NCBI RefSeq assembly: GCF_018324685.1
Contig: NZ_AP023354.1
Coordinates: forward strand, 6,530,426 to 6,594,425
Source of the DNA: Actinocatenispora sera
GTDB lineage: Bacteria; Actinomycetota; Actinomycetes; Mycobacteriales; Micromonosporaceae
Length of the DNA: 64,000 nucleotides
Reading direction: 5' to 3'
Under the pieces are notes generated by a model. That model saw nothing but the letters and a program-made list of their open reading frames with translations, searched no databases and was not told the origin of the DNA. Positions 52,741-59,612 of this stretch are shown in pieces. The translations under genes and the position numbers were made by a program. Positions within the stretch are counted from its first letter, which is position 1, and each line of letters starts with the position of its first letter.

Positions 52741-53892
52741 ATGTGCCCAGACCTGGAACTCACCGATCTCGAGTTGGCCCCGACCGCGACGGGCGGGGTA
52801 CCGGGCCGGGCCGTCGACGGCCTGCGCTGCGCGGTCGCCCCCGGACAGGTGGTCGCCGTGATCGGCGAGACCGGCTTCGGCGGTACCCGGCTGGCCCGCG
52901 CGGTCGTCGGCCTGGACGAACCGGCGGGCGGCCGGATCACCTTCGGTGAGCACCAGTGGTCGGCGGACGAGGCGCCGTGCGCGTTCGTACCGTCCGGCGG
53001 GGGGCTGATCCCGCAGCTGTCGCTGCGCCGCAACATGCTGTTCGGCGCCCGGCTGCGGGAGGAGATCCGGGCCCGGGAGGAGTCCACCGCCGGCTGGCTG
53101 GAACGCCGCCGGATCCGCTGGCGGCGGTACGGCCAGGACTCGGACCAGGTCGACCGGATGCTCACCGCCTTCCAGCTGTCCTCGGTCGAGCGGTACGTGC
53201 CCGACCGGGTCAGCGCCGCGCAGCGGATGCTCACCGCGCTGGGACGCGCGCTGCTGCACGGCCGGCCGGTACTGGTGGTCGACGCCACCGGCGGCCAGGA
53301 ACCCGACGACGCGTACGTCCAGCTGCTCGACCAGGCCCGCACGCAGCGGCCGGACCTCGCCGTGCTGCTGTGCACCGATCGCCCCGGGCTGCTGCGCGCC
53401 CGCACCGATCCGTACGCGATCGACTGGGTGGTGGTGGTCGGTTACCAGGGGGCCGTGGTCGCGCAGGGGCCGCCGGCGGCGGTGGCGCGGCCGGGCTCGG
53501 TCGACGCCGCTGCGGTGCTCTACGGCGACCCGATGCTGATCGTGCCGGTCGACGACTGGCCGGCCGAGTGGGGCGCACCCGCACCGGCCCCGACGCCGGG
53601 AGCCGACTGGATGGTGGTCGGTGCACCGGCCGCGTCCACCACCGGTACCGCCCGCCGGGCGCGCGGCAGCCAGCTCGTCGTCGAGGTGCTCGGGCCGCAC
53701 GAACGGCCGCGGTTCCAGCGGGTTCGCGCCGTTCGCTGCGGCCGCCGCGACTGGCTGCTGCGGCTGCCCCAGCCGGTACCGGTCGGCCACCGGGTCCGGG
53801 TCACCGCCACGCCGGGCCGGGCGGTCCGGGTACCGCTGAACGCCGCCGCGCCGTCCGCCCCGGTGCCGCCGGACGCGGGGGTGCCGTCATGA
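52741..53892 (+). CDS. ABC ATPase-like protein with all nucleotide motifs degenerate
   Basis: 383 residues, MalK-like layout (ATPase domain, then TOBE-like beta domain from about 290). The fold is recognisable, but each functional motif is altered: Walker A is GETGFGGT with Gly48 in place of Lys; the Q-loop reads FVPSGGGLIPQ with Ser85 for Gln; the signature is VSAAQ (157-161) instead of LSGGQ; Walker B is LVVDATGG with Ala182 for the catalytic Glu; the H-loop reads LLCTDR with Thr for His. It is very unlikely to hydrolyse ATP. Start ATG 52741 (GCGAGG upstream) or 52732. Its stop overlaps the next start (ATGA). Probably a structural or sensory subunit. Confidence 0.85.
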   Translation: MCPDLELTDLELAPTATGGVPGRAVDGLRCAVAPGQVVAVIGETGFGGTRLARAVVGLDEPAGGRITFGEHQWSADEAPCAFVPSGGGLIPQLSLRRNMLFGARLREEIRAREESTAGWLERRRIRWRRYGQDSDQVDRMLTAFQLSSVERYVPDRVSAAQRMLTALGRALLHGRPVLVVDATGGQEPDDAYVQLLDQARTQRPDLAVLLCTDRPGLLRARTDPYAIDWVVVVGYQGAVVAQGPPAAVARPGSVDAAAVLYGDPMLIVPVDDWPAEWGAPAPAPTPGADWMVVGAPAASTTGTARRARGSQLVVEVLGPHERPRFQRVRAVRCGRRDWLLRLPQPVPVGHRVRVTATPGRAVRVPLNAAAPSAPVPPDAGVPS

Positions 53893-55181
53893 GGCGCCGC
53901 ACCCTGCTCGCCGCCGGCGCGGCCGCCGCCACGGTGCCGCTGACCGGCTGCACCAGCGCCGGCCACGGGCTCGAGGTGGTGTGCGCCTGGGGTGGCCCGG
54001 AACTCGCCGCGTTCCGGAAGGTCCTCGCCGGTTTCACGGCCCGGACCGGGCACTCGGTCCGGATCGTCGTCGCCAACGGCAACGGTGTCGACGCGATGCT
54101 GTCGGCCCGGTTGGCCGCCGGCAACCGGCCGGACGTCGCGGTGTTCTCCGAGCCGTCGCTGATCACCCGGTACGCGAAAGACGGGCACCTCGTCGTGCTG
54201 CCGGACGCCTACGTCGCCGGCCTGCCGGACTACTGGTCCTCCCTCGCCGGCGTCGACGGCACCCTGTACGGCTGCTGGCTGAAGATCGCACACAAGTCGC
54301 TGTTCTGGTACCGGCAGAGCGAGCTGTTCCCGTCGGCCGACGGGAACCCGCTGCTGGCGCGAACGCCGAGCACCTGGACCGAGCTCGTCGACCTCGTCCA
54401 CCACTGGCCGGTGCCCGGTCAGGCGCCGCTGGCGATCGGCGCGGCCGATGGCTGGGTACTCACCGACTGGTTCGAGAACGTGCTGGCCTCGCTCAACAGC
54501 AACGACCAGACCGGCAACGCGTACGACGCGCTGGTCTCGCCGCACGCGACGTGGGACGTCGAGCTGGTCCGAGACGCGCTGCGCAACCTCGGCGACCTGT
54601 GGGCGCTGCCCCACGCGCTCCCCTACGGCGGGGCCCGAGCGCTGCTCACCCCGTTCGACGCGTCGGTGGCACAGGTGTTCGGCGAACACCGGGCCGGGCT
54701 GCTGTTCGAGGGCGACTTCGTCGCGCCGATCGTGAAAGGTCTGCACCCCGACGACGAGCCGTCGTACTTCCCGTTCCCCCCGGTACAGGACCGCCGGCGA
54801 CCGCAGATAGTGGGCGGTGACCTGGCCGTGCTGTTGCGACGCAGCGGGCCCGGGCTGCGCCTGATGAAGTACCTCACCACCAGGGCGGCGGCAACGCCGT
54901 GGGTGAAGGCCGGCTTCCTGGTCGCACCGTACCTGGACAACCTGACGATCGAGTACCCGCGACGGCTGCGCCGGCTCGCGCGCGAGATCAACGACCCGCG
55001 CGCCGAGATCCGGTTCGACCTGTCCGATCAGCTGACCGGCACGCTGATCGGGGACGACGGGAAGGGCAGCTGGCTGATCCTGTCCGACTTCTTCCGCGCG
55101 GTCACCGGCGGCCGGCCGATCGAACGAGCCGTGGACGAGGCGGTACGCGAGTTCGACCGGGCCACGAGGATGCTCCGATGA
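53889..55181 (+). CDS. ABC-type extracellular solute-binding lipoprotein
   Basis: 430 residues. Twin-Arg-like start (MRRRTLLAAG) and lipobox PLTGC (Cys21), then a type 1 sugar-type solute-binding fold: LEVVCAWGGPELAAFRKVLA, GFTARTGHSVRIVVANGNGV, RPDVAVFSEPSLITRYAKDG, GLLFEGDFVAPIV and the terminal VTGGRPIERAVDEAVREFDR. Predicted to bind a carbohydrate or similar solute at the outer membrane face. ATG overlaps the preceding stop and its own stop overlaps the permease start (ATGA both times), so the genes are translationally coupled. Confidence 0.9.
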   Translation: MRRRTLLAAGAAAATVPLTGCTSAGHGLEVVCAWGGPELAAFRKVLAGFTARTGHSVRIVVANGNGVDAMLSARLAAGNRPDVAVFSEPSLITRYAKDGHLVVLPDAYVAGLPDYWSSLAGVDGTLYGCWLKIAHKSLFWYRQSELFPSADGNPLLARTPSTWTELVDLVHHWPVPGQAPLAIGAADGWVLTDWFENVLASLNSNDQTGNAYDALVSPHATWDVELVRDALRNLGDLWALPHALPYGGARALLTPFDASVAQVFGEHRAGLLFEGDFVAPIVKGLHPDDEPSYFPFPPVQDRRRPQIVGGDLAVLLRRSGPGLRLMKYLTTRAAATPWVKAGFLVAPYLDNLTIEYPRRLRRLAREINDPRAEIRFDLSDQLTGTLIGDDGKGSWLILSDFFRAVTGGRPIERAVDEAVREFDRATRMLR

Positions 55182-56989
55182 CGACCGCGCCGACGCCCCG
55201 GATGCGACCGGTCGACCGGCTGCTGGTGCTCGACGACGTCGGCCCGACCCGGCGCGACCGGATCCGGCCGGAGACCCGCCGGGCCTACCTGTACCTCGCG
55301 CCGGCCACGCTGGTCGTCGGCGGACTGCTGGTGTGGCCGGCGATCCGGACCGTGGTCGACAGCCTCACCATCGGCTGCCGCGGCGTCTGCCTGGGCAACT
55401 TCACCGACGCCTGGTCCGACCCGCTCGCCCGCCGGGCGCTGCTGCGCACGCTGGCCTGGGCGGTCGCCCTACCGGTGGTGCTGACCGCGGTCGGCTACCT
55501 GCTCGCGGTGGTGTCCCGCCGGGTCCGCCGGGCCGGCGTGCTGACCGTCCTGCTGGTGGCGCCGATGGCGTTGCCGATGCTCGCGACCGCGGTGGCGTTC
55601 CGGCTGCTGTACGACCCGGATCCGAGCCGTGGCCTGGTGACCGCGCTGACCGGCCGGGTGATCGGGTCCGATGCGCCACAGGCGCTCGGGCCCGGCCTGG
55701 TCACGTTCGCCATGATGTCCGCGTTCGTCTGGGCCTACCTCGGGCTGTCGGTGGTGGTGTTCCGGCGGGTGCTGGACGCGATCCCCAGCCAGCAGGTGTC
55801 CATGATCATGGCCGAGACCGGCCGGCGCCGGGAGGTCTACCGCTGGCTGTACTGGCCGATCCTGCGCCGGGTGGCGGCGCTGCTGGTGGGCCTGGCCGGG
55901 CTGTTCTCGGCCCGCAGCTTCGACCTGCTGCTCGCGCTCGTGCCCGGCTCCAGCCAGCCGGCCGGCGAGGTGCTCGCGCTGCACGTCTGGCGGTACGGTG
56001 CCGGACCGACCGCCGGCCCGGCCGCCGCACTGTCCGTGCTGTGGTTCGCGGTGCTGGCGCTGACCGTGGTGCTGCCGCTGATCTCGTTCCGGGCGCAGTG
56101 GCGGATGCCGCCGGTCGACGTCACGGTGTGGGACCGGCACCTGCCGGCCCGGTACTCCGGGCTGCGGCACCGGCTCGCCCAGGCGCTGTGCGTGGCGGCG
56201 ATCGTGCTGTGGCTGATCCCGGCGGCGCTGCTGGTGTTCGCCTCGCTGCACGCCGACGCGACGCTGGCCACGGACGGACTGTCCGGTGCGCTGTCGCTGG
56301 CATCCTTCGGCCAGGTGCTCGGCGCCGGCGGGATGCTCGGCAACTACCTCGGTACCGGCCTGTTCGCGCTGCTGGTCGCGGTGCTGGTGGTGGCGTTCGC
56401 CGGCCCCGCCGCGTACGCGCTGGGCTGGCTGCGCCCGCCCGGCCGCGGCGCCCTGCTGACGGTCGTGGTGGTGTGCGCGACCGTACCGGTGCAGGCGATC
56501 ACGATCCCGCTGGTGCAGACGCTCGGCACGGCCCGGCTGTCGGGTACCGGCCAGGCGTTCGTGCTGGCGCACCTGGCGCTCGGCATCCCGCTGACCACCG
56601 CCCTGCTGTACGGCGCGTTCGGGTCGCTGTCGCCGGAGCAGATGCGGCAGGCCGCGATCCACCACGGCGCCGAGGCGGCCGGCCCGGGCCGGGCCACGTT
56701 GATGCAGGTCGGGCCGAACCTGTTCGCCGCCGGCGTACTGCAGTTCGTGCAGGTGTGGAACGACGTCGCGGTGGGGCTGCTGTTCGCGCCGCCGCAGCTG
56801 TCGCCGATCGGGCTCAGCCTGCTCGGCCAGCTGCGCTACTACACCACCGGCTCCGGCCACGTCGCCGCCGCCACCGTGCTGTTCTCGGTGGTACCGCTGG
56901 TGGCGGTGATGGCCGCGCGCAAGCAGATCGTCCGGCTGCTGATGGCGGGCGTGTCCGGCAACTGGCAAGCGAAGCCGACGAAGCGGTGA
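55178..56989 (+). CDS. Double-length ABC permease (MalF-MalG-type fusion)
   Basis: 603 residues with two binding-protein-dependent permease domains in one chain: the first ~30-310, the second ~335-595, about twelve membrane helices in total. The cytoplasmic EAA loops that dock the ATPase are weakly conserved: MIMAETGRRREVYRWLYWPI (about 208) and QMRQAAIHHGAEAAGPGRAT (about 489); the WND marker follows at about 527. Importers of this kind normally use two separate permeases, so the fusion is unusual. Its start and stop overlap the neighbouring genes. With a degenerate ATPase partner it may form a receptor rather than a pump. Confidence 0.88.
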   Translation: MTTAPTPRMRPVDRLLVLDDVGPTRRDRIRPETRRAYLYLAPATLVVGGLLVWPAIRTVVDSLTIGCRGVCLGNFTDAWSDPLARRALLRTLAWAVALPVVLTAVGYLLAVVSRRVRRAGVLTVLLVAPMALPMLATAVAFRLLYDPDPSRGLVTALTGRVIGSDAPQALGPGLVTFAMMSAFVWAYLGLSVVVFRRVLDAIPSQQVSMIMAETGRRREVYRWLYWPILRRVAALLVGLAGLFSARSFDLLLALVPGSSQPAGEVLALHVWRYGAGPTAGPAAALSVLWFAVLALTVVLPLISFRAQWRMPPVDVTVWDRHLPARYSGLRHRLAQALCVAAIVLWLIPAALLVFASLHADATLATDGLSGALSLASFGQVLGAGGMLGNYLGTGLFALLVAVLVVAFAGPAAYALGWLRPPGRGALLTVVVVCATVPVQAITIPLVQTLGTARLSGTGQAFVLAHLALGIPLTTALLYGAFGSLSPEQMRQAAIHHGAEAAGPGRATLMQVGPNLFAAGVLQFVQVWNDVAVGLLFAPPQLSPIGLSLLGQLRYYTTGSGHVAAATVLFSVVPLVAVMAARKQIVRLLMAGVSGNWQAKPTKR

Positions 56990-59355
56990 CCGACGAGCGC
57001 ACAAGGCTGTGGCGACAGCGGATCCGCCGGGTCGCCCGGTTCGTGCTGCCGCTGGCCGCGGCGGAACTGGTGTCGCAGCTGGCCTCCGCGATGGGCGCCA
57101 ACCTGATCACCGACTCGTCGCTGATCAACTCGCTGCTCGCGGTGCTGTTCGGCGTGGCGCTGTCGCTGCTGCTGGAGATGCGCTACCGGATCCGGCTGGA
57201 ACCCGACCCCGAACCGGATCCCGAGACCGACGCCGCGGCGCTGACCGCCACGACCGTCACCACGCTCGCCGCCGACGCGCAGGCCGCCGTCGCCGCGCCC
57301 GAACCCGACGCCGTCCCGGGCGAGCCGGCAGGCCCGGAACGGCGGCGGCTGCGCGGACTCAACCGGCGCGCGGTACCCGTGTACGGCCAGCTGCCGGAGG
57401 TGCCCGAGCTGGTCGGGCGGGAAGCGCTGTGCGACGAGGTCGAGCAGGAGATCGCCGACGGCCGGGTCCTGGTGCTGTACGGCGCGCCCAACTACGGCAC
57501 CTCGGCGGTCGCGGCGGCCTGCGCCCGCAAGTATCCGGCGGCCCGCACCCTGTACGTCGACCTGCGATCCGGCCCGCAGCATCCGTTCACCGCGCAGCAG
57601 GTCGTGGACGCGGTCCTCGCGCAGCTGGGCCGGCCGGACACCTCGATCACCGAGGCGCTGCACACCGAGCAGATCCTGCTGGTGGTGGACAACGTGCAGC
57701 ACGACGAGCAGGTCGCGCCGTTCCTCTCCGCCACCGCACCGCGCGGCCTGACGATGATCGCCGGTACCGGCATGAGCATCCGCTCGGCCTACCCGCACCT
57801 GTTCACCTGGGAGGTCAGCGGCCTCAGCGACGAGGACGCGGTCGACCTGTTCGGCCGGGAGACCGACCGCGGCGACCTGTCCGGCAACGAGAACGCGAAG
57901 ACCATCGTGCGCGAACTGGGCAAGCAGCCGACCGCGATCCGGCTGCTGGCCAAGAACATCGAGCCGGACGACCGGCTCAGCGACTGGCTGCCGGACACCA
58001 CCGTCAACGACGCCGTCTGGCGGGCCTGCTGGCGCACCTTCGAGCTGGTACATCCGGTGCAGCTGCGGCTGCTGCGGCGGATGGCGGCGGTGGCCGAGGT
58101 CGAGCTCGACCTCGGCGGCATCGCCGCGCTGGCGCACCGCCCGCGGTCCCAACCCGAGGTCTACGAACAGCTGCGCACGCTCCGGCACCGCCAGCAGATC
58201 CGGCAGGGGTACGCGACCCGCCCGGCCACCGCGGCAGACGGCCGCAGCTACGAACCGCGGTACCTGATCGCCGACGACTGGGTGCCCCCGCTGACCGGGT
58301 ACGTGCAGTGGTCCCGGCGGGCGGTACGCCGGGAGGCGCAGCGGGCGCTCACCCGGCTGCTGCGCCACTACGGCGACCTCGCCACCCAGTACGCGGACCG
58401 GCTGCCGGAGTCGGCGGCACGCGAGTGGTTCGAGGAGTACGAGACGACGCTGCTGCCGCTGGTCACCCGCTGGGTGTCGATCGTGGCGCCGGACCCGGCG
58501 GCCGAGGCACCGGTGCGCAAGGCAGGGCCGCCGGGGCTGACCCGCGGCGGGCTGCGCGCGGTGGCCGCGATCGCCGCGGCGCTGTGCCGCTGGTACGAGG
58601 CGACCGGCGACTACCGTGGCCTCGGCGACAGCAACCGCACCGCCCGGGCGTACCGGGTGGCGCACTCGATGAAGCTGCTCGCCGACCGGTACGGCGAACC
58701 GGCCGGGCGCGCCTGGGCGCTGAACCAGGTCGCCGCGATCCGGCGCGCCACCGGCGACCAGCTCGGCGCGCAGCAGCGGCTGCACGAGGTGCAGCGCGGC
58801 CCCGGCCGGTCACGGGGCGGCGCGCAGGTCAGCACCAACCTGGGCATCGCCGAGCTGGGCCGGGATCCGACCACCGCGCTGTACCGGGCGACGAAGGGCC
58901 GCCAGCTGCGCCGCCGGTCCGATCATGCCGGCCGGGGCCGCGCCGACCTCGCGCTGGCCGTGGCGTACCTGCACTGCGGCGGTGACGGCAGGTTCAGCCA
59001 CCGCCGGCAGGCCCAGGCTCGGCTGGAGGCGGCGCTGCGCGAGTTCGGCCGGGCCGGCGACGGCCGAGGCGAGGCCTGCGTGCTGCACAACCTCGGGCTG
59101 CTGTGCTTCGACACCGCGCCGCACCGGGCGAACCAGCTGTTCCAGGACGCGCACGTCCGGCTGCTGCACGGCGCCGATCCGACGCTCGCGATCCAGCGCA
59201 CGCTGGCCGAGGCGGACCTGCTCTGCGCGAACCCCGCAGCGGACCGGGAGGCGACGCTTGCCCGGCTGGCCGAGGCCCGTGACCTGGCCGAGCGCTCCCC
59301 CGACATCGACCTGGTCGCCCAGCTCGACACCTACCGCGCCGCCCTGACCCGGTGA
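56986..59355 (+). CDS. Membrane-anchored NB-ARC/STAND protein with TPR-like C-terminus, P-loop Lys missing
   Basis: 789 residues. Hydrophobic N-terminus (residues ~18-40 and 46-66), acidic/Pro/Ala linker (~72-118), an NB-ARC-type module (~135-440), winged-helix-like region (~330-440) and helical TPR-like repeats (~520-789, WALNQVAAIRRATGDQLGAQ, RADLALAVAYLHCGG, EACVLHNLGLLCFD). The P-loop is GAPNYGTS (166-173) with Thr172 in place of Lys; Walker B ILLVVDNVQHDEQ keeps Asp235; the GLPL-like motif is GKQPTAIRLLAKNI. It is coupled by GTGA to the permease, so it probably works with the permease complex as signal transducer. This combination is not one recognised from known systems. Confidence 0.82.
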   Translation: MTDERTRLWRQRIRRVARFVLPLAAAELVSQLASAMGANLITDSSLINSLLAVLFGVALSLLLEMRYRIRLEPDPEPDPETDAAALTATTVTTLAADAQAAVAAPEPDAVPGEPAGPERRRLRGLNRRAVPVYGQLPEVPELVGREALCDEVEQEIADGRVLVLYGAPNYGTSAVAAACARKYPAARTLYVDLRSGPQHPFTAQQVVDAVLAQLGRPDTSITEALHTEQILLVVDNVQHDEQVAPFLSATAPRGLTMIAGTGMSIRSAYPHLFTWEVSGLSDEDAVDLFGRETDRGDLSGNENAKTIVRELGKQPTAIRLLAKNIEPDDRLSDWLPDTTVNDAVWRACWRTFELVHPVQLRLLRRMAAVAEVELDLGGIAALAHRPRSQPEVYEQLRTLRHRQQIRQGYATRPATAADGRSYEPRYLIADDWVPPLTGYVQWSRRAVRREAQRALTRLLRHYGDLATQYADRLPESAAREWFEEYETTLLPLVTRWVSIVAPDPAAEAPVRKAGPPGLTRGGLRAVAAIAAALCRWYEATGDYRGLGDSNRTARAYRVAHSMKLLADRYGEPAGRAWALNQVAAIRRATGDQLGAQQRLHEVQRGPGRSRGGAQVSTNLGIAELGRDPTTALYRATKGRQLRRRSDHAGRGRADLALAVAYLHCGGDGRFSHRRQAQARLEAALREFGRAGDGRGEACVLHNLGLLCFDTAPHRANQLFQDAHVRLLHGADPTLAIQRTLAEADLLCANPAADREATLARLAEARDLAERSPDIDLVAQLDTYRAALTR

Positions 59356-59529: not shown

Positions 59530-59602
59530 GCGGACGTAGCGCAGCTGGTAGCGCATCACCTTGCCAAGGTGAGGGTCGCGGGTTCGAATCCCGTCGTCCG
59601 CT
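59530..59602 (+). tRNA. tRNA-Gly (anticodon GCC)
   Basis: 73 bases. Acceptor stem GCGGACG pairs with CGTCCGC; D arm GCGCAGCTGGTAGCGC; anticodon stem TCACC/GGTGA around loop TTGCCAA; T arm GCGGG-TTCGAAT-CCCGT. The 3' CCA is not encoded. A Rho-independent terminator follows within ten bases. Confidence 0.98.
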
Positions 59603-59612
59603 CCGGTTCGAG

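Follow-up and report, generated by a model that had tools for sequence, protein, structure and literature searches.

A conserved four-gene unit of sugar-importer type that has lost nucleotide-binding residues: a candidate solute receptor in Actinocatenispora sera and its relatives

Does an operon that resembles a sugar ABC importer, and that also encodes a STAND/TPR protein, still pump its solute, or could it bind a solute outside the cell and pass the signal inward? This question is raised by four genes in the window, by which we mean the whole 64,000-nucleotide stretch of Actinocatenispora sera DNA that was analysed. The ABC-SBP-permease-STAND unit spans positions 52741-59355 on the + strand, and every junction is a 4-nt overlap; the gene coordinates bear out the ATGA, ATGA and GTGA overlaps read in the initial annotation. 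The unit contains the following features.

52741-53892, +: pseudo-ABC ATPase of MalK/CUT1 type, 383 aa (Pfam ABC_tran and family profile)
52864..52887, +: degenerate ABC P-loop GETGFGGT, without lysine (Lys in 0/58 loops across the family)
53889-55181, +: CUT1-type solute-binding lipoprotein (SBP), 430 aa (SBP_bac_1, phmmer, profile, lipobox)
54438..54470, +: conserved sugar-site motif GAADGWVLTDW (identical in 57/58, T to S in 1)
55178-56989, +: fused MalF-MalG permease, 603 aa, 11 predicted hydrophobic segments (GlcT/GlcU, profile, hydropathy)
55787..55873, +: first EAA-type coupling loop, diverged, family-conserved
56636..56716, +: second EAA-type coupling loop, diverged, family-conserved
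56986-59355, +: pseudo-STAND protein, 789 aa, anchored in the membrane and ending in TPR repeats (family profile, TPR_12, NB-ARC)
57103..57159, +: transmembrane segment predicted for STAND (hydropathy)
57481..57504, +: STAND P-loop GAPNYGTS, Lys to Thr, spacing kept

Recurrence of the unit in actinomycetes

The initial annotation had proposed a search for the four-gene order together with an alignment of the motifs; the order recurs in soil actinobacteria, across two families, and the motif losses are common to the members. Among 300 genomes searched from the window's family, 59 have the whole order and a further two have the permease-STAND portion, cut by a contig end; among 150 from a second family, 7 have the whole order. 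The searches scored only two to six candidates per genome, which makes these counts lower bounds. The order is also carried by Nonomuraea gerenzanensis, to whose genus the second family is tied by 72% STAND identity (L214 vs L020). In the 59 fetched loci with sufficient upstream DNA the gene order is identical, and 4-nt overlaps occur at the successive junctions in 58/59, 58/59 and 56/61 cases, counts that are favoured by our taking the gene starts nearest the preceding stop. Because three divergent lineages, namely Actinocatenispora, other members of its family, and Nonomuraea with its relatives, share the gene order, the permease fusion, 4-nt overlaps for the most part, and the absence of both P-loop lysines, the pattern goes beyond chance. 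The operon is dispensable in the window's genus, since one of four genomes lacks it at the same place.

Members were told apart from ordinary STAND proteins, which were set aside, by a gap in score below 413 bits: 60 genomes score at least 413 bits, and next come G353 (207) and the second fragment of the split G579 (201), with all others at 174 or less. G353 holds the whole operon and G513 (174) is without it. Nine lower-scoring loci from the class search (L176-L184) have no SBP or permease, and the two inspected of the 24 below-gap genomes in the second-family search (L220, L221) encode ordinary STAND proteins. The aligned set of 58 leaves out L144 and L147, in which the ABC and the STAND gene, respectively, are split over two frames, L101 and L150, which run into contig ends, and the non-member L154. 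L009 and L051 represent a single A. comari locus, and the seven second-family loci lie outside the 58 and were read by eye. L053-L064 are labelled Streptomyces because their DNA is 70-87% identical to that of the named record L222.

Purifying selection acts on all four genes in the eight pairs sampled, with dN/dS between 0.09 and 0.71, all below 1. Random decay in one genome is rejected on these values together with the losses common to relatives. Between-gene distance correlations for the four genes are 0.956-0.984, values equally expected under simple vertical descent. Spread by plasmids was also considered, as the permease search pointed to N. gerenzanensis, for which the 11.85 Mb record carries a plasmid label; it was rejected, a plasmid search with the STAND protein giving no match at 1e-5.

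Altered nucleotide-binding sites in the ABC and STAND proteins

The window ABC protein matches Pfam ABC_tran (E=1.4e-12), and the best solved relatives of its family profile are MalK/SugC/MsmX-type ATPases (2.5e-35 for 1z47). Its signature reads VSAAQ, not LSGGQ, and its Walker B VLVVDAT. Across the aligned ABC proteins the P-loop Lys, the Q-loop Gln, the first signature Gly and the catalytic Walker B Glu are each present in 0/58, and the P-loop glycines are partly lost; the Walker B Asp is present in 53/58, and the Nonomuraea and second-family proteins carry an E-D pair there. A first column count that gave Thr at the Walker A lysine position in 55/58 was superseded by the alignment, in which the lysine column holds Gly in the window protein and L153 and perhaps a deletion in other members; our claim is therefore limited to the lack of the lysine. 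The P-loops of the seven second-family ABC proteins, read by eye, lack it as well. As a control, unrelated ABC proteins encoded downstream of the operon have the Walker A lysine (GK[ST]) in 24/24, LSxGQ in 23/24 and LDEP in 24/24. Homologous operons in which the Walker A Lys or the Walker B Glu is intact, named by the initial annotation as one finding that would overturn its reading, did not emerge: 0/58 ABC proteins have either. The unit has the SBP and the two MalF/MalG-type TMD halves of a CUT1 importer, the halves being fused, and none of the 58 aligned ABC proteins has the residue set of a catalytically competent MalK-type ATPase.

The STAND protein has likewise lost its P-loop lysine, and the annotated loss in both window proteins (GETGFGGT and GAPNYGTS) holds. 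The loop reads GTS in 56/58 members, GAS in one and GSS in one, against the usual GKS. Its spacing, the Ser and the Walker B Asp are kept, the last as DN in an LLVLDNV-type stretch wherever the sequence could be read (it could not in L147, which is frameshifted), and the TSR stretch of ordinary STANDs is AG-type in nearly all family members. The ordinary STANDs L154, L220 and L221 serve as controls and keep GKT/GKS and TSR. Weak nucleotide binding is conceivable, since the STAND protein retains these features and the ABC protein mostly retains its Walker B Asp. At least one hydrophobic segment lies within the first 110 aa of 57/58 STAND members by hydropathy.

Pfam returned nothing for the window STAND protein or the window permease at E<=1. 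Among aligned STAND relatives, however, TPR_12 matches 12/14 and NB-ARC 4/14, and the NCBIfam AfsR and HaaT models match 10/14 and 12/14; the NB-ARC-type core followed by TPR repeats is assigned by family profile. The best solved relative of that profile is AfsR (E=2.4e-44), which has the same order of STAND core and TPR; its P-loop aligns as GVGK, whereas the STAND here has GTS and an N-terminal membrane segment. AfsR carries a SARP DNA-binding part.

Ligand site, fused permease and coupling loops

The window SBP matches Pfam SBP_bac_1 (E=5.5e-16), NagB2 (1e-7, phmmer) and a xylo-oligosaccharide binding protein (8.8e-13, profile), and a lipobox pattern is found in 56/58 SBPs. The motif GAADGWVL[TS]DW occurs in 58/58 members, so the putative ligand site of the SBP appears to be kept across the family; a similar DGWTLTDWFEN occurs in 10/12 related loci.

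In the permease, NCBIfam GlcT and GlcU give one match per half on the same chain, far under their curated cut-offs, and profile matches are to SugB (1.3e-24), the SugB partner 7cad_A (9.3e-11) and MalF (4e-11). The halves share a single open frame in 59/61 loci, the remaining two being truncated by contig ends, which rules out two misread genes. The fusion was thus correctly annotated, as was the pairing of a sugar-importer-like set (CUT1-type matches) with an NB-ARC/TPR protein. The likeness to LpqY-SugABC-type CUT1 importers lies in the matches of the two permease halves to SugB and the SugB partner, and of the dead ABC to SugC/MalK. Unlike the operon here, those importers have separate permease chains, a working ATPase and no STAND protein.

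The EAA/DGA residues of both coupling loops differ from those of Streptomyces relatives, whose loops were selected with a pattern for the usual EAA motif; the first loop of L153 is closer to that motif. The loops had initially been called weak. They do depart from the usual motif, but because they are conserved within the family we regard them as better described as specialised.

A receptor, an importer or another use

We lean, by a modest degree, toward reading the four-gene unit as an importer-derived oligosaccharide receptor, sensing sugar outside the cell and not importing it. The lipoprotein would bind an extracellular oligosaccharide and dock on the fused permease, which would change shape; at the altered coupling loops the dead ATPase would be held as an adaptor or docking plate; and the membrane-anchored STAND/TPR protein would sit against it, its TPR or oligomerisation state shifting without ADP/ATP exchange, whereupon an unlinked cytoplasmic partner would be bound or released. 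Overall, this would be the scheme of E. coli MalFGK2-MalT minus both nucleotide cycles. The reading that the unit binds its solute and does not pump it with its own ATPase is favoured because the catalytic residues are lost (Lys/Glu 0/58) while the SBP motif is retained (58/58), and as regards that ATPase the initial proposal of solute binding instead of pumping stands. Its other part, passage of the signal to the TPR region, we infer, and likewise that no other ATPase drives the permease.

The nearest precedent is E. coli MalFGK2-MalT, in which idle MalFGK2 is described as anchoring MalT at the membrane via MalK (PMC10427625). In its parts, the operon is like MalEFGK2-MalT in having a sugar SBP, MalF/MalG and MalK-type parts beside a STAND protein with a TPR-like sensor. 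MalK and MalT are NTPases, whereas both P-loop lysines are lost here; MalT binds both DNA and a sugar inducer of its own, whereas the STAND protein here has no clear DNA-binding domain (a weak HTH_Crp_2 match, E=0.0087, in 1/14); and here the permease is fused and the STAND itself membrane-anchored. The mycobacterial lipoprotein GlnH has been proposed to signal via GlnX to the TPR-bearing PknG (PMC6069109), and that set likewise joins a lipoprotein SBP, a membrane protein and a TPR protein in one operon. As described there, the SBP-driven receptor is a proposal, GlnX has predicted four-helix-bundle sensor domains and not an ABC permease, and the output is a kinase. Reuse of a transporter fold for sensing is also described for 5TMR histidine kinases, S-component-fold receptors (PMC11109136); in that account the fold is that of an ECF S-component, whereas the unit here comprises a complete CUT1-type set, SBP and ATPase included.

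The receptor reading has to be weighed against the conserved coupling loops, which count against it because docking of a working ATPase would need them too. Also against it are the first loop of L153, the genome of the window's genus that lacks the operon, the nucleotide-site features that both proteins retain, and the variable flanking genes. The conserved loops speak instead for the main rival, which we judge unlikely, of a working sugar importer powered by a shared MsiK-type ATPase and gated by the dead ABC and STAND proteins as regulatory subunits. MsiK is an ATPase shared among importers in Streptomyces, the close Streptomyces relatives are SBP-MalF-MalG sets, and in the one annotated record the 10 features inspected include a GH13 gene and no ATPase gene. 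However, the residues of both loops are unlike the pattern-picked Streptomyces ones, a co-encoded dead ATPase under selection would be expected to compete for the docking site, and no sugar-metabolism gene was recognised by eye among the largest flanking clusters.

It is improbable that the altered P-loops still bind nucleotide and switch in an unusual manner: the retained P-loop spacing, Ser and Walker B DN of the STAND protein are consistent with such use, as are the Asp and E-D residues of the ABC proteins, but the latter lack the Walker A Lys, Q-loop Gln, signature Gly and catalytic Glu together, with part of the P-loop glycines gone. Absent ATPase residues beside a retained SBP motif would also fit a passive channel or facilitator, in which the fused permease equilibrates the solute and the other proteins gate it; this we consider quite improbable, as it leaves the conserved STAND protein unexplained and we know of no ABC importer permease that acts as a facilitator. 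Slightly less probable still is a decoy or trans-inhibitor, in which the dead complex would adjust a sister importer's activity by titrating away sugar, SBP or ATPase. The SBP and permease are related to working CUT1 importers, which speaks for it, but the STAND protein would not be needed, and neither another such SBP nor another such permease was seen beside the operon in the 62 loci scanned (~4 kb each side).

More tentatively, the receptor reading may extend to a new class, in which a whole ABC sugar importer acts as a nucleotide-free sensor controlling a nucleotide-free STAND hub. Crude term searches of the open-access literature found no description of the four-gene system. If such a class exists, ligand binding alone would drive signalling, a complete ABC importer could shed its motor yet persist as a receptor, and a STAND protein could persist without nucleotide switching; what ATP binding, apart from hydrolysis, adds to sensing by MalFGK2-MalT-like pairs would then become directly testable. 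Homology-based annotation would probably label three of the four genes as sugar transporter, and the sensor may thus be overlooked. The window's family consists of antibiotic-producing actinobacteria.

As to the output, an effector-domain scan with Pfam, PADLOC and NCBIfam returned TPR/STAND-type matches besides the weak HTH_Crp_2 match. An anti-phage system was rejected, PADLOC yielding only a generic TPR model in 5/14 members, and so was a conserved neighbour as effector: no flanking gene is common to all 61 loci, and the largest cluster reaches 34/61. With gene types read by eye, subsets of loci carry a WYL-type regulator upstream (27 loci) or an intact ABC downstream (24 loci, in most of them with a membrane protein).

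Gene organization and protein identities

The operon and the tRNA gene just 3' of it are laid out in the window as follows.

52741–53892, + strand: ABC gene, MalK-like dead ATPase
53889–55181, + strand: SBP gene, sugar-binding lipoprotein
55178–56989, + strand: permease gene (PERM), fused MalF-MalG permease
56986–59355, + strand: STAND gene, membrane-anchored STAND/TPR protein
59530–59604: tRNA-Gly(gcc), considered together with locus L224

The four genes proposed in the initial annotation are present where it placed them, and the junction overlaps it listed (ATGA, ATGA and GTGA) can be read directly in the window. The family profile places ABC in the MalK/SugC/MsmX branch (1z47, 2.5e-35; E. 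coli MalK, 5e-29; SugC, 8e-27), and profile matches identify SBP as a CUT1 oligosaccharide binder (xylo-oligosaccharide binder, 8.8e-13; NagB1, 9e-12; NagB2, 3e-11). The permease fuses a MalF-like half to a SugB/MalG-like half. In STAND, a hydrophobic segment at the N-terminus is joined to an AfsR-like core and to TPR repeats; the core and the repeats were detected via the family profile and in relatives, and Pfam matched neither on the window protein itself. Relative to the ten other ABCs aligned with it, the window ABC is extended at its C-terminus by ~130 aa (53490–53889), perhaps what is left of the MalK regulatory domain.

We examined 62 loci, consisting of 58 regions from the family search together with L020 (Nonomuraea gerenzanensis), L051 (A. 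comari), L052 (Actinocatenispora) and L065. The fused permease is followed by STAND in 61 of these, and a recount gives the identical four-gene order in all 59 loci with sufficient upstream DNA. Overlaps of 4 nt are seen at 58 of 59 ABC-SBP, 58 of 59 SBP-PERM and 56 of 61 PERM-STAND junctions, as scored by a script that took the start codon nearest the preceding stop and is biased towards overlaps. L154 was rejected as a member, being an ordinary STAND with GKT and TSR. With respect to the flanks, an ORF for a WYL-type regulator lies upstream in part of L097–L146 (a cluster of 27 loci), often co-directional with the ABC gene and stopping ~50 bp short of it. Downstream of the operon, 24 loci have an intact ABC ATPase, and a cluster of 511-aa membrane proteins occurs with it in 16.

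Distribution among genomes

When actinomycete genomes were searched as the initial annotation had proposed, the four-gene order recurred in at least 59 genomes of the window's family, Micromonosporaceae (to which Actinocatenispora belongs), seven of a second family and N. gerenzanensis; these and the other distribution counts are lower bounds because two to six candidates were scored per genome. The search with STAND alignment A1 returned ≥413 bits in 60 of 300 family genomes, and G353, at only 207 bits, also proved to bear the operon, which brings the total to 61. The order is complete in 59 of these; in the remaining two (L101 and L150) permease and STAND are present and the contig ends upstream. 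In two of the 59, one gene (ABC of L144, G033; STAND of L147, G538) is split over two frames, reflecting either sequencing error or recent loss.

Within the genus of the window, whose genome is 7.04 Mb, three of four genomes have the operon; A. comari carries it with a STAND 92% identical to that of the window. The fourth (G002) lacks it and retains two upstream genes, tRNA-Gly and one downstream gene, with ~1.3 kb at the site where the window has ~7 kb. Among 394 genomes sampled from the class, two stand clear of the remainder: that of the window itself and G911. Of 150 genomes in G911's family, 7 match at 5e-98 or better, the next match being 2.8e-70, and all seven have ABC-SBP-PERM-STAND. 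N. gerenzanensis (Streptosporangiaceae) has a STAND 72% identical to one of these seven; its 11.85 Mb record (NZ_LT559118.1), which PLSDB files under plasmids and which has 10 annotated features in total, is most likely the chromosome.

Nucleotide sites, ligand site and selection

The catalytic residues of ABC ATPases are textbook knowledge. Loss of the P-loop lysine in both nucleotide-binding proteins, as claimed in the initial annotation, extends to the window and all 57 loci aligned with it: 0/58 ABCs have the lysine, and STAND, with P-loop spacing retained, reads GTS (56), GAS (1) or GSS (1). Homologous operons with an intact Walker A Lys or Walker B Glu, which the annotation had named as a sign of random decay, were absent, as none of the 58 ABCs has either. 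The Q-loop Gln and first signature Gly are likewise found in 0/58, and the Walker B Asp is kept in 53/58; the Walker B pair is E-D in Nonomuraea and the seven second-family loci. A STAND stretch that is TSR in ordinary STANDs begins with AG in nearly all members. The control STANDs L154, L220 and L221 are intact, as are the ABCs downstream of the operon (n = 24; Walker A lysine 24/24, LSxGQ 23/24, LDEP 24/24).

The SBP motif GAADGWVL[TS]DW is present in 58/58. Its Asp-Gly-Trp, which we take to contact sugar, aligns with solved sugar binders, and the similar DGWTLTDWFEN occurs in 10 of the 12 related loci matching a named Streptomyces record. Neighbors in that record are SBP, MalF, MalG and GH13; none of the 10 features listed encodes an ATPase.

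Nei-Gojobori dN/dS over eight pairs is 0.10–0.31 for ABC, 0.19–0.42 for STAND, 0.09–0.27 for the permease and 0.25–0.71 for SBP, which is highest in five pairs, with ABC or STAND highest in the other three. Distance correlations among the four genes are 0.956–0.984; vertical descent alone would give likewise. Between Actinocatenispora species (window versus L051 and L052), SBP identity is 75–81% with dN/dS of 0.40–0.71, and permease identity is 95–98%.

A possible solute-sensing relay

Retention of the ligand-site motif, together with loss of the ATPase residues in both NTPases across two families, argues for a unit that would bind its ligand without pumping by its own ATPase. SBP binding would move the permease, and the dead ABC would pass this to STAND and STAND to a partner. 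The working precedent is in E. coli, where the idle maltose transporter tethers MalT, a STAND protein, to the membrane via MalK, and transport activity releases it (PMC10427625); STANDs normally convert from closed to open as ADP gives way to ATP (PMC6468293); and actinobacterial GlnH-GlnX-PknG is a proposed SBP-to-TPR relay (PMC6069109). Compared with the transporter-MalT pair as described there, the operon may have the same layout, but with both nucleotide cycles removed.

Alternatively, a shared MsiK-type ATPase could drive the permease. The permease EAA loops are unlike those of Streptomyces, which were selected with a pattern for the usual motif, yet are conserved among the operon's members (in L153, loop one comes closer to the usual form). 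Their conservation fits such a partner; points against it are their divergence from EAA/DGA and the presence of a dead ABC in the operon. It is less likely that the unit is a passive facilitator or a decoy, or that nucleotide is bound in a non-canonical manner. The individual parts are known, and in kind the operon would belong with SBP-coupled receptors and transporter-STAND pairs. Crude term searches of the open literature, with subscription papers mostly outside coverage, found no description of the four-part combination, and there is a real chance that the operon is a class of its own. Finally, the operon's SBPs share a conserved DLSDxL...G.DG stretch near the C-terminus that did not turn up in the 12 related Streptomyces-type loci and could serve as a system-specific docking site.
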